Shown here in pieces: positions 4,888 through 56,851 of a DNA stretch of 64,000 nucleotides. Under the pieces are notes generated by a model. It saw nothing but the letters and a program-made list of their open reading frames with translations. It made no database searches and was not told where the DNA came from. Source of the stretch: Acuticoccus yangtzensis. Its GTDB lineage: Bacteria; Pseudomonadota; Alphaproteobacteria; Rhizobiales; Amorphaceae. A program made the position numbers and the translations under genes. How positions within the stretch are numbered: position 1 is the stretch's first letter; each line of letters starts with the position of its first letter. The stretch is from contig NZ_MJUX01000001.1 of assembly GCF_001927245.1 (NCBI RefSeq), positions 868,001 to 932,000 on the forward strand. The letters are read 5' to 3'.

Positions 4888-5913
4888 ATGGCGACCTTCT
4901 ACATTCACGCCGGCTACGGGAAATGCGGCTCCACGGCGATCCAGCGGTGGCTGCAAAATGCCGGCGCCTCGCTGCGCAAGGACGGCGCCTTCAACTGCGG
5001 CACCGGCCTGCAGCACTGCCCTGAGGCCCCCTTCGGCACCGTGCCCGAGATGATCCGCGCCATCCGCACCGACCCGGACGCCGCCGCGCGCGACATCGGC
5101 GCAGCGCTCGCCGCCGCGGGCGAGCGCCACTCCATCGTCATCTGGTCCTGCGAGGCGCTGCAGCTTCGCCACCGCCTGCTCGCCCCCATCATCGCCGAGC
5201 TGATGACCCGGCACGAGGTCAAGGTCGTCCTCTATCTGCGCAACCATGTGGCGTGGCTGCTGTCGGCCTATGCGCAATGGGGCATCAAGCACCCGACCTC
5301 GCGCCACAAGACCGCGCCCCACGCCGTCAGCTTCGCCGAGTTCGTGGAATCGCGGCGGCAGGACCTCGACTATGCCGGCGCCATCGCCGGGTGGGAGCGC
5401 ACCGGCGCCACCGTCCTCCCCCGCTCCTACGACGCCGCGCCGGATGTGGTGGACGACTTCATCGCCCTCGCCGGCCTCTCCGGCTCCAGCGACGGCGGGC
5501 GCGCCAACCCGCCGATGCAGCCCACCACTCTTGCGCTCTTGAAGGGCATCCAGAGCGTGCGCAAGGCCCCCGTCGGCATCGCCAGCTTCGAGAAGATGCT
5601 GCGCCGCTCAGCGCTCAGCCCCGGCGCCATCGAGACCACCTCGCTGGACCTCCTTCCCGAAGCGGACGTCGACCTCGCCGCCCTCCACGCCTCGTTCCAG
5701 GGCGAGCGCGACGCCTTGCGCACCCGCTACGGCCTCGACCTGACGGACAGCGCCCCGCGCAACCCCCTCACCCGCCCCTCCGGCACCAACGACGACGTCG
5801 TCGCCGTCCTCTCCCTCATCTGCCAGACCCTGCACGAGCGCGTGGAAACCCTGGAGGCCCGCCTCGCCACTCTGGAGGCCGAGCGCAAGGCCGCCCCCAC
5901 CGCCGAAGATTGA
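4888..5913 (+). CDS. Sulfotransferase-like protein (PAPS-dependent fold)
   Basis: 341 residues. The N-terminus FYIHAGYGKCGSTAIQRWL (about 4-22) matches the sulfotransferase 5'-phosphosulfate-binding loop (HxGxxKTGTT-like). A later stretch VVLYLRNHVAWLLSAYAQW resembles the 3'-phosphate-binding segment (R...S). The last ~40 residues form a short coiled coil rich in Leu/Glu (HERVETLEARLATLEAERK). It should transfer sulfate to a carbohydrate or other cell-surface acceptor. The next gene, 182 bp on, is a GT61-like glycosyltransferase, which fits a surface-glycan role. The acceptor is unknown and the coiled coil suggests self-association. Confidence 0.65.
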   Translation: MATFYIHAGYGKCGSTAIQRWLQNAGASLRKDGAFNCGTGLQHCPEAPFGTVPEMIRAIRTDPDAAARDIGAALAAAGERHSIVIWSCEALQLRHRLLAPIIAELMTRHEVKVVLYLRNHVAWLLSAYAQWGIKHPTSRHKTAPHAVSFAEFVESRRQDLDYAGAIAGWERTGATVLPRSYDAAPDVVDDFIALAGLSGSSDGGRANPPMQPTTLALLKGIQSVRKAPVGIASFEKMLRRSALSPGAIETTSLDLLPEADVDLAALHASFQGERDALRTRYGLDLTDSAPRNPLTRPSGTNDDVVAVLSLICQTLHERVETLEARLATLEAERKAAPTAED

Positions 5914-6095: not shown

Positions 6096-7484
6096 TTGCC
6101 CGCACCCCTGTCAGACGCCCCGTCCGCAGCAATGCCCGCCGACGCACGTCGTGACTTCGTCGCCCTGGTCGAAGCGGCGCTGGCCAAAAGCGTGCGGCGC
6201 ATCGCCTTCGCCGATTTCGCCCGCGCGGGCCGCGAGATGGGCGTCCTCACCCCGCAGGAAATCACTGCCTGCCAGCGTGGCTCCAAGCTGCCGGACTGGA
6301 CCCTCGCCGCCCTCGGCCCCGCCCAGGACGTCACCACGGCGGACGGTCTCGCCCGAACCGACAGCATCCGCGAGCCCTTCGGCCCCGACAGCCCACCCGC
6401 TCACGCCGTCATCGCCCCTGCCGCCATCGCCCCCGCCATGACTGCCCCCGCAGCGGCCGTCGCAGCGCCGCCTGTCGCATCGACCACCGCCGCAGCGCCG
6501 CCCGTAGCGCCCGCGGACGCGGCGCCTGACACCGCGCCTCCCGCCGCCGCCACGGCGCCCGCCGCAGCCTCTCGCGCTCTCCCCCGACCCGCCGTCGCCT
6601 CCCACGGCGGACCGCTGCGCCTTTCGGTCCACAACCACAACCGCCTCGCTTTGGCGGGCGATGCCGTCGTCCCCGCCCTCTCCAACCCGCGGGCACACTG
6701 GCTCATCCCCCGCGTGCGCGCCGCGGAGGGCGTGCCGCACCTCACCGGCCACACCATCGACGCCGTGGTGGAAGGCGGCCCGCTCTTCTCCCACTTCCTG
6801 TTCGACGCTGTCCCCAAACTCCTCGCCCTGCGTCAGCGGCTCGACCCCGCCCGCGCGGACCACATCCTCTTCACCTCCCTGCGCAGCCCGTTCCACACCG
6901 AAACGCTGGAGCGCCTCGGCATCGACCCCGCCCGCTGCCTCACGCGCGAGGAACATGGGGCCCTCTTCGACGTCGAGCGCGTCACATGGGTTCGCCCGCT
7001 GCGGCGCGGCGGCAAGACGTCCGCCGGGCTCTACGAGGCGGTGCGCACCCTGTTCGGGGCCGACACGGCGACAGGCGGCCCCCGCCGCATCTACATTTCG
7101 CGCGGCAAGGCCAAACGCCGCCGCCTCCTCAACGAGGCCGACATGCTTCCCGCCCTCGCCCGCCACGGCTACGAGGTGGTCAATTTCGAGGATCACGGCG
7201 TTGCCGGCGCGGCGCGGCTTCTCGCCGGGGCCGAGCATATCGTCGGCCTCCACGGGGCGGGCTTCGCCAACATGGTCTTCGCGCCGGCCACCTGCCGCGT
7301 CACCGAACTCCACGGCCCCCACTGCAGCGCCGAATATCGCGATATCGCCGCAATCCGCGGCATGCCCTACGACCGGCTGGACTGCGGCCGAGGCGGGCAC
7401 GACTTCGCCGGCGACAGCTTCGCCATGAGCTACAGCGACGTCACCGTCGACCCCGCGGCCTTCGCCGCCCTGCTGCTGCCCTGA
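6096..7484 (+). CDS. Glycosyltransferase family 61 (DUF563)-like protein
   Basis: 462 residues from TTG 6096, chosen because GAAAGG (6083-6088) sits 7 bp upstream; ATG 6132 is the alternative. A small helical N-terminal module (about 15-80) is followed by an Ala/Pro-rich linker (about 105-170). The catalytic region then has VVEGGPLFSHFLFDAVPKL, RRIYISRGKAKRRRLLNE and the typical GT61 end IVGLHGAGFANMVFAP. Members add pentose or hexose residues to glycans. No polysaccharide polymerase or export genes are in the window. With the preceding sulfotransferase it may modify a surface polymer. Acceptor and donor unknown. Confidence 0.75.
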   Translation: MPAPLSDAPSAAMPADARRDFVALVEAALAKSVRRIAFADFARAGREMGVLTPQEITACQRGSKLPDWTLAALGPAQDVTTADGLARTDSIREPFGPDSPPAHAVIAPAAIAPAMTAPAAAVAAPPVASTTAAAPPVAPADAAPDTAPPAAATAPAAASRALPRPAVASHGGPLRLSVHNHNRLALAGDAVVPALSNPRAHWLIPRVRAAEGVPHLTGHTIDAVVEGGPLFSHFLFDAVPKLLALRQRLDPARADHILFTSLRSPFHTETLERLGIDPARCLTREEHGALFDVERVTWVRPLRRGGKTSAGLYEAVRTLFGADTATGGPRRIYISRGKAKRRRLLNEADMLPALARHGYEVVNFEDHGVAGAARLLAGAEHIVGLHGAGFANMVFAPATCRVTELHGPHCSAEYRDIAAIRGMPYDRLDCGRGGHDFAGDSFAMSYSDVTVDPAAFAALLLP

Positions 7485-20380: not shown

Positions 20381-20582
20381 GCGGCAGCGCCTCAGCGAGG
20401 AGGGGTTCCCCTCCTCGCGCTCCTCTCCGCTTCGCCAGCGGGCAGGCCTTCAATCCGGAAGAGGATTGAAGGCTGCATCAAGGCTGAGAAGGAGCGTGAC
20501 GGCGTCAAGCGGCCGTCCTCCCCGTGCTCGCCCGCTGAAGAAGCGGCCTGCGCGCGGGTCCGGGCGACCACTTGACCCCGCC
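20381..20582 (-). repeat. Structured intergenic repeat, copy A (inverted relative to copy B)
   Basis: Read on the minus strand, the first 85 nt match copy B (56646-56730) at 82 of 85 positions; the rest is similar in plan but diverged. Helices in order: P1 11 bp (20566-20576 with 20504-20514, two G-T pairs) enclosing a CCGCT/AGCGG hairpin; P2 perfect 11 bp (20463-20473 with 20446-20456) with loop TCTTCC; P3 CCGCT/AGCGG around GGCGA (20427-20441); P4 perfect 11 bp (20395-20418). Stems vary between copies but remain paired, which supports structure at RNA level. It sits between two plus-strand operons. Class unknown; RIME-like intergenic repeats of rhizobia are the nearest known concept. Confidence 0.8.
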
Positions 20583-20697
20583 ACGATCCTTCAGACCCGC
20601 ATCATGCACGCCGCCGCTGGACAGGGCGGCGCGGGGCTTGCAGGATTTCGTGTCGCCGGATGAGGACCACCGCGGCGGGGCGATGAGAGGCGGGCGG

Positions 20698-56619: not shown

Positions 56620-56645
56620 TCGGGCGCTTTTTTCCGAAGAGATGA

Positions 56646-56851
56646 GGCGGGGTCAAGTGATCGCCCGGACCCGCGCGCAGTCCGCTTCTTCAGCGGGCGA
56701 GCACGGGGAGGACGGTCGCTTGACGCCGTCTCGTCTCTTCACAGGCTTGATGCAGGGTGTCAGCTCGGGCTTCTTCAGCCCGATCTGACCCCTGCCCGGT
56801 GGCGAACCGGGGGGAGCGCGAGGGGGGAACGCCCTCGCGGGGCGCTGCCGC
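56646..56851 (+). repeat. Structured intergenic repeat, copy B
   Basis: About 206 nt between converging operons, inverted relative to copy A. Helices: P1 11 bp (56652-56662 with 56714-56724, two G-T) enclosing CCGCT/AGCGG with loop TCTTC; P2 long stem opening GCAGGG and closing CCCTGC with inner TCGGGCT/AGCCCGA around TCTTC (about 56752-56796); P3 CCGGT/ACCGG around GGCGA (56796-56810); P4 CGCGAGGG/CCCTCGCG (56817-56839). In P1 and P3 both partners change together relative to copy A. The G-T pairs are stable only if this strand is the RNA. Class not recognised. Confidence 0.8.

Follow-up and report, generated by a model that had tools for sequence, protein, structure and literature searches.

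A folded non-coding element dispersed over Acuticoccus chromosomes, with relatives on plasmids, as a candidate single-strand promoter

Two intergenic stretches in a 64,000-nt window of the genome of the marine bacterium Acuticoccus yangtzensis (the window being the whole stretch of DNA analyzed, positions 868,001 to 932,000 of contig NZ_MJUX01000001.1) resemble one another in sequence and fold, raising the question of what such an element is and what it might do. A preliminary description had placed one copy (A) on the minus strand and one (B) on the plus strand, and both were found at the positions it gave. Reading A from 20582 down and B from 56646 up, we recovered the 82 of 85 shared bases on the 5' side that it had counted, and two of the three differences do make up a single pair of the first stem (P1), G-C in A and A-T in B. 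Single-sequence folding also predicts the P2 and P4 hairpins as they had been drawn for each copy, and the change in P3 from CCGCT/AGCGG in A to CCGGT/ACCGG in B around the same GGCGA loop. The boundaries, however, had been set too narrowly. P1 begins further 5', at 20592 in A and 56636 in B, and this longer 5' arm pairs with the sequence directly after the shared 85-base block; the box originally drawn cuts through P1, with the 17 nt before GGCGGGG belonging to the element and the outer stem lying partly outside. Nor is the element merely present twice, as had been thought: the 5.04-Mb genome holds 39 full-model sense copies, of which two lie inside the window. It is a folded non-coding element of about 210 nt, scattered over dozens of sites in Acuticoccus chromosomes.

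Taking the end of P4 as the 3' end of the element (20395 in A, 56839 in B), copy A runs from there to the outer base of P1 and occupies 20395..20600 of the minus strand, as judged by folding and a covariance match of 191.5 bits, with the full-model match itself covering 20397-20600. Copy B occupies 56628..56839 of the plus strand (209.2 bits, plus folding). P1 (A, 20488..20592, minus; B, 56636..56740, plus, the latter supported by covariation and folding) is a long imperfect stem with an internal and an apical hairpin, and its outer part is locus-specific in sequence yet complementary. Its 3' arm contains a -35-like TTGACG at 20503..20508 (minus) in A, where TTGAC pairs with GTCAA and the last G faces a conserved G, and at 56720..56725 (plus) in B, as identified by the geometry count and hairpin-promoter scan given below. 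Sixteen nucleotides past TTGACG comes an unpaired, -10-like motif of the form nAnnCT: CAGCCT at 20481..20486 (minus) in A, and CAGGCT at 56742..56747 (plus) in B. Three further hairpins follow, each resting on covariation and folding: P2 (A, 20444..20477, minus; B, 56751..56794, plus), which varies in sequence and length among copies; P3 (A, 20427..20441, minus; B, 56796..56810, plus), with a nearly invariant GGCGA loop; and P4 (A, 20395..20418, minus, GCGAGGAGGGG / CCCCTCCTCGC; B, 56817..56839, plus), whose sequence is highly conserved.

Copies were collected with two covariance models, R1, built from 31 sequences, and R2, built from 48. In the 5.04-Mb genome R1 returned 61 rows at E <= 0.1, comprising the 39 full-model sense matches and 22 others that were antisense to the near-palindromic P1, partial or weak; a 43-nt partial match (L259) was excluded from the counts. 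Searching the same genome at the DNA level yielded 56 matches, a good many being fragments. The element was found in 8/8 Acuticoccus genomes, and at E <= 0.01 each of them returned between 3 and 59 match rows, some of which are antisense to P1. No match turned up in two genomes from a different genus of this family, and among other genomes of the order at least 1 of 389 had one. In 6/8 genomes the best identity within the genome exceeded that between genomes (for instance 96% vs 83% in G007); the exceptions are G003, where the two were equal, and G004, which had no within-genome match. Five copies of the window's own genome (L014, L021, L023, L024 and L029) have ~60 to 70 extra nt between CTGCC and P4, and several of these inserts carry a hairpin of the CCCAACTGCGC...GCGCAGTTGGG type that recurs between copies.

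The preliminary description had proposed selection on a fold, and this is now strongly supported. As DNA, copy A folds into P1-P4 with z = -7.1, and copy B gives z = -7.4 as DNA and -8.5 as RNA, with 0/200 shuffles as low in each case. Alignment A3 comprises 114 matches, of which 12 are antisense to P1. Pairing held in 91.2% of its cells vs 74.0% after shuffling, and two-sided changes occurred at 51/62 pairs vs 37.7 in shuffles. Sliding the pair partners dropped pairing to 36-41%, and the covariation score of 0.364 compares with 0.113 for shuffled and at most 0.063 for slid pairs. A model-fitted alignment favors its own structure, but compensatory change of the same kind was seen for P1 in a MAFFT alignment of 31 sequences made before any model was built. 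The outer P1 arms differ from locus to locus and are still complementary to each other. Across all 123 sense rows (alignments A3 and A4), G.T cells outnumbered A.C cells 349 to 92; selection on the other strand would invert this ratio, and the fold of the reported strand is therefore the selected one. Building a covariance model, the check that had been suggested earlier, thus yielded many more copies, and covarying ones, rather than two copies only, with compensatory change spread over more than 100 copies. Nor did the copies show a protein or insertion-sequence match, as far as a count of their open frames can tell. Neither the covariation nor the G.T/A.C asymmetry distinguishes a fold made in RNA from one made in DNA; the two look alike to both. 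These data also bear on whether the element is a coding sequence or insertion-sequence remnant that folds by chance in GC-rich DNA. Many copies do have open frames (34/39 G000 copies are >90% open on the sense strand), yet this is expected in GC-rich DNA, and P1 and P2 change length among copies in non-triplet steps. With fold z-scores of -7 to -8 and covariation far above controls, we consider a remnant very improbable indeed.

Some parts of the element hardly change at all. Although paired, the central GTCAA/TTGAC of P1 scarcely varies, in contrast to many other P1 pairs. A script located the core in 112 of the 123 sense copies, spuriously in one case (L257). Among the other 11 are copies with a variant core (for example GTCGA, GTCAG, GTCAC or GTCCA), two that match weakly, one that carries an insert and one truncated where its contig ends. 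In 95 of the 112, nAnnCT begins exactly 16 nt past TTGACN, and the looser nAnnnT does so in 105; at any other spacing from 11 to 21, nAnnCT occurs in at most three copies each. A non-standard pair beside TTGAC, mostly G.G, is retained in 94/113 cells of A3, and G.G stands there in 28/31 sequences of the MAFFT alignment. Within the 16-nt spacer four pairs are largely conserved and most of the others change on both sides; the spacer is therefore not free in sequence. Rich in G and C, the -10-like box agrees with TATAAT at two positions only. In the 3' part, TGCC behind P2, the GGCGA loop of P3 and a G-rich run into P4 are constant. When the window was scanned for hairpin-promoter geometry, copy B ranked first on the plus strand and copy A second on the minus strand, although in one of five control loci (L116) the top match was not the element. 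The same scan found at most 0.73 paired in a stretch with the M13 origin; in a stretch of F, its best plus-strand match was 0.83 paired, with the box GTGGCA, in the Frpo2 region upstream of ssb. The latter match has a poor -35 and is suggestive.

The A and T of nAnnCT fall on the two bases on which a -10 box depends most. A nearly invariant duplex TTGAC, ~16 bp of largely free duplex and an unpaired A/T motif fit what a single-strand promoter would need, and we tentatively propose, at well short of even chances, that the element may be a folded single-strand promoter or priming site. On this proposal the fold would act in single-stranded DNA, where P1 would rebuild the -35 box (TTGAC) and a spacer of ~16 bp as duplex and leave the -10-like nAnnCT single-stranded at the base of its helix. 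RNA polymerase with the main sigma factor might then bind at P1 and start RNA into the 5' flank, so as to prime the second strand or to transcribe that flank, as at a single-strand promoter or initiation site. P2-P4 and the conserved 3' sequences would form a second recognition module. On plasmids, the element would help convert single into double strands; in Acuticoccus, it would have spread over the chromosome, mostly to gene ends.

The closest parallel is Frpo of the F plasmid, described in passages of PMC9849209 and PMC11541004 as a single-stranded DNA hairpin that rebuilds -35 and -10 boxes. Like Frpo and the ssi single-strand promoters of F and ColIb-P9, as those passages present them, the family studied here is non-coding, folds into hairpins and is plasmid-borne, and covariation, strand asymmetry and folding all point to a stable hairpin kept by selection on one strand, as in a Frpo-type promoter. 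Unlike those promoters, it lies at gene 3' ends, is dispersed in chromosomes and has the extra conserved hairpins P3 and P4; its -10-like box is unpaired and GC-rich, and its promoter role is predicted. Homology to Frpo was rejected, as a search of the F leading region (52.0-66.5 kb) with R2 found nothing at E <= 1. A likeness of P2-CTGCC-P3-P4 to the complementary-strand origin of phage G4, a DnaG-dependent ssi that also combines several single-stranded DNA hairpins with CTG, was considered and likewise rejected: by eye the order of hairpins and start differs in G4 and alpha3, and no model matched.

The plasmid homes of its relatives fit the single-strand promoter reading. A pattern scan of genome contigs gave at least 99 matches, many by chance. 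We scored 71 scan loci with R1, namely 66 of 80 listed (the 14 Acuticoccus matches being left out) and five from viral contigs, and obtained 14 rows at E <= 1, with six loci at E < 1e-7 and one more, truncated where its contig ends, at 3.7e-7; none of the five viral-contig loci was among these R1 matches. The relatives among the matches listed lie on contigs labeled Hyphomicrobiales, Afipia, Rhodospira, Sneathiella and Rhodobacteraceae. Two more are on contigs labeled Muricauda and Thermomicrobiales whose adjoining rep and par genes are alike, and these two labels may be binning errors. As a query against plasmids and phages, copy B found no matches. The diverged copy L122 found 88 plasmid records; in 20 of these the match extends over at least 80% of the query, and each of the 20 bears the name of a Hyphomicrobiales genus. 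A second diverged copy, L124, found four plasmid records (Phaeobacter, Sulfitobacter, Roseivivax and Pelagovum), three covering at least 80%. Phage queries with L122 and L348 returned nothing or chance matches.

On the six plasmids inspected, the element or match lies upstream of a recombinase cluster with integrase genes in two, adjoins a coupling-protein gene or is one gene away from it in two, and is near rep or par genes in the others, where the model matches in part only. The two with the recombinase cluster, L347 and L348, are rhizobial-type plasmids on which a tyrosine recombinase and two ~600-aa proteins annotated as integrase or hypothetical lie directly downstream of the element (cluster at 12262-17554 in L347 and 12293-17601 in L348). 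On L346 (580-830), a 2.95-kb RepA plasmid found in Pseudomonas and other gammaproteobacterial records, the order of P1 core, P2, CTGCC and GGCGAA can be followed by eye; P4 differs from that of the Acuticoccus element and the models match in part only. Small RepA plasmids of this kind are many in gammaproteobacterial records. L351 has a partial P1-type match and a full element as an inverted pair (5124-5206, minus, and 7012-7182, plus; R1), as does L350 (461-541, minus, and 2016-2217, plus; R1), and L124 and L137 show such a pair with R1 too. These pairs would suit paired initiation sites. The inverted partial matches were not recovered by R2 at E <= 1 except on L346, and because R2 mostly missed them we slightly lowered the chances that we give to the single-strand promoter reading.

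Model R2 extended the family to at least 5/384 other genomes of the class and at least 13/397 other genomes of the phylum, in draws that overlap; in searches over more than 40 genomes five to six candidates were scored per genome, and these counts are lower bounds. Seven of the 13 phylum genomes belong to one family, inferred from gene content to be Rhodobacteraceae-like, whose elements have a similar P1 and a different 3' half with CCTCTCAGC or a near variant. Within that Rhodobacteraceae-like family, 9/31 genomes had matches at E <= 0.01, with up to 11 rows in one. Nine loci (L373, L374, L375, L377, L379, L382, L383, L384 and L369; element at ~1501-1640, oriented) represent a second multi-copy family on Rhodobacteraceae-like chromosomes, which shares the P1 core, has a different P2, ends in CCTCTCAGC or a close variant and carries GANTC in many arms; several copies start directly after a stop codon.

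The promoter-like spacing is less regular among these relatives. Across the class, phylum and Rhodobacteraceae-like searches, in a table of 38 loci that leaves out ten further ones, the scripted core was present in 29; nAnnnT stood at 16 nt in 19 of these and nAnnCT in 13, and the P1 arms and mostly the 3' halves differ from the Acuticoccus copies. In a set of 16 tabulated relatives, nAnnCT lay at 14 nt in nine (two identical in sequence), at 15 in two, at 16 in two and at 17 in one; the remaining two lack nAnnCT, with nAnnnT at 18 in one and likewise in the other. The nine relatives with the 14-nt spacing have an outer stem that is for the most part not paired (5 to 9 of 17 positions, without gaps), and such a spacing with a weak outer stem, as seen in many plasmid-type relatives, counts against the single-strand promoter reading. 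So do the GC-rich -10-like box, the four conserved spacer pairs, the retained G.G mismatch, for which this reading has no explanation, and the failure to find a relation to F Frpo.

Gene context was assessed for the 119 of 123 sense copies for which a simple GC3 script called both neighbors. The element lies between convergent genes in 62, tandem genes in 48 and divergent genes in nine, compared with 45 convergent and 89 divergent among 252 background gaps measuring 100 nt or more; convergent gaps are enriched (62/119 vs 45/252, p = 3e-11) and divergent gaps depleted. The upstream gene is a median of 24 nt away and co-directional in 86/119 copies, and in 33/119 it is not. In Acuticoccus, RNA started as we propose would mostly (86/119) enter a gene from its end, in antisense direction, another point against the single-strand promoter reading. 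The GC skew on the element strand was positive in G000, G003 and G005 and negative in G006 and G007 (p <= 0.05 each). We rejected a strict replication-strand rule, as this bias is weak, opposite in sign between species and absent overall; it too counts against the single-strand promoter.

For three of five G003 copies, both flanks map close together in G005 (19, 56 and 340 nt apart) with no element between. Sites filled in one species are thus empty in a sister, and the element therefore moves or turns over. A target-site duplication is not resolvable at these three sites, where the intergenic DNA is too diverged, and at two of them the gap has, by eye, a terminator-like hairpin instead. For copies A and B, no element was found within 1.5 kb of one neighbor's ortholog in six and three relatives, respectively. 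The second neighbor was detected beside that ortholog only in G005 for A and in no relative for B, and because it is so rarely detected these sites are weak empty-site evidence. Simple mobility is at odds with four G003/G005 pairs that have their position and one or more adjacent genes in common. Three pairs of copies (L224/L285, L231/L331 and L316/L325) lie in the same gene neighborhood in two species with opposite orientation relative to the genes.

How far do these observations favor other readings? The element could be a MITE- or REP-like mobile repeat whose fold is the recognition site of an enzyme of single-stranded DNA transposition, with no host role; the conserved stem and unpaired motif would then be protein contacts or a cleavage site. 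A non-coding sequence with 39 full-model copies in one genome, a presence in 8/8 genomes of the genus, mostly greater identity within than between genomes, three empty sites, a bias towards convergent and away from divergent gaps, and modular inserts in some copies would all follow naturally. Mobility alone, on the other hand, does not account for the TTGAC-16-nAnnCT geometry or for positions common to different species, and terminal inverted repeats (at least 9/12 complementary end bases, at model-set ends) were found in 0/123 copies, contrary to a MITE. We regard this reading as a serious but doubtful possibility. No mobilizing gene came to light. Mobilization by the plasmid recombinase cluster was set aside after one of its genes matched nothing in the genus at E <= 1e-10, in a search run without a positive control, where an empty result proves little.

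An element acting as RNA is rather unlikely in our estimate. It would be read from the upstream gene as a 3'-UTR structure, a small RNA, a bidirectional terminator or an mRNA stabilizer, and such a role would agree with the strand-specific fold, the short distance to a mostly co-directional upstream gene, the preference for convergent genes and the terminator-like hairpin that replaces the element at two G005 sites. The 33 copies that are not co-directional argue against it, as do the lack of a U-tract after P4 in the copies read, the occurrence of plasmid copies ahead of genes too, or close to rep and transfer genes, and the near-invariant sequence in a long helix, which is unusual for a terminator. 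No Rfam 15 family reached its gathering threshold in the whole window or in seven relatives, and a permissive search with copy B returned four miRNA rows only, far below threshold; the earlier statement that this is not a named RNA agrees with that result. The earlier alternative of a structured RNA family or a structured mobile repeat can thus be weighed anew: copy number and the three empty sites strengthen the mobile repeat, and the structured RNA stays hypothetical, as promoter geometry and plasmid relatives fit single-stranded DNA at least equally well.

Other repeats offer partial parallels. The RIME repeats of Rhizobium are intergenic palindromic mosaic repeats, and the CIR repeats of Caulobacter contain the CcrM site, GANTC. 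CIR, the CcrM-associated repeats of Chen and Shapiro (2003), are strictly intergenic and alphaproteobacterial, according to a passage of PMC10969869 that cites them. Our element shares both traits with CIR, which we compare by description only, and the P1 5' arm contains GANTC in 18/29 tabulated relatives; unlike CIR, GANTC falls in the first 125 nt of just 3/123 Acuticoccus copies, compared with 444/4817 flank windows. CIR may overlap with the Rhodobacteraceae-like branch. In Bradyrhizobium (Hyphomicrobiales), Br-REP1/2 are intergenic palindromic repeats in 3'-UTRs and also between convergent genes, and Br-REP2 belongs to a longer element that Afipia has as well, as set out in PMC5082802; the consensus sequences given there (~20 and 40 nt) have, by eye, no evident likeness to the element. 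In literature on plasmid leading regions, single-strand initiation, alphaproteobacterial repeats and Acuticoccus, no title described it.

Extending the single-strand promoter reading, one may picture a mobile class of such promoters, common to alphaproteobacterial plasmids and chromosomes, in which a fold with a built-in sigma70-type promoter, its -35 and spacer double-stranded and its -10 pre-opened, would prime its own second strand, with swappable 3' modules and amplification to dozens of copies in Acuticoccus; we think this broader picture improbable, though worth stating. Whatever its role, the element founds a family with extensive covariation outside any Rfam family. Even if it is a mobile repeat only, the models detect a family that we did not find described, near gene ends in this genus and on plasmids of other genera. 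If the single-strand promoter reading is true, the element would provide a defined sequence for studying how incoming strands are converted in Alphaproteobacteria, whether in conjugation, rolling-circle replication or uptake, and the route from a plasmid priming site to a chromosomal repeat would become testable.
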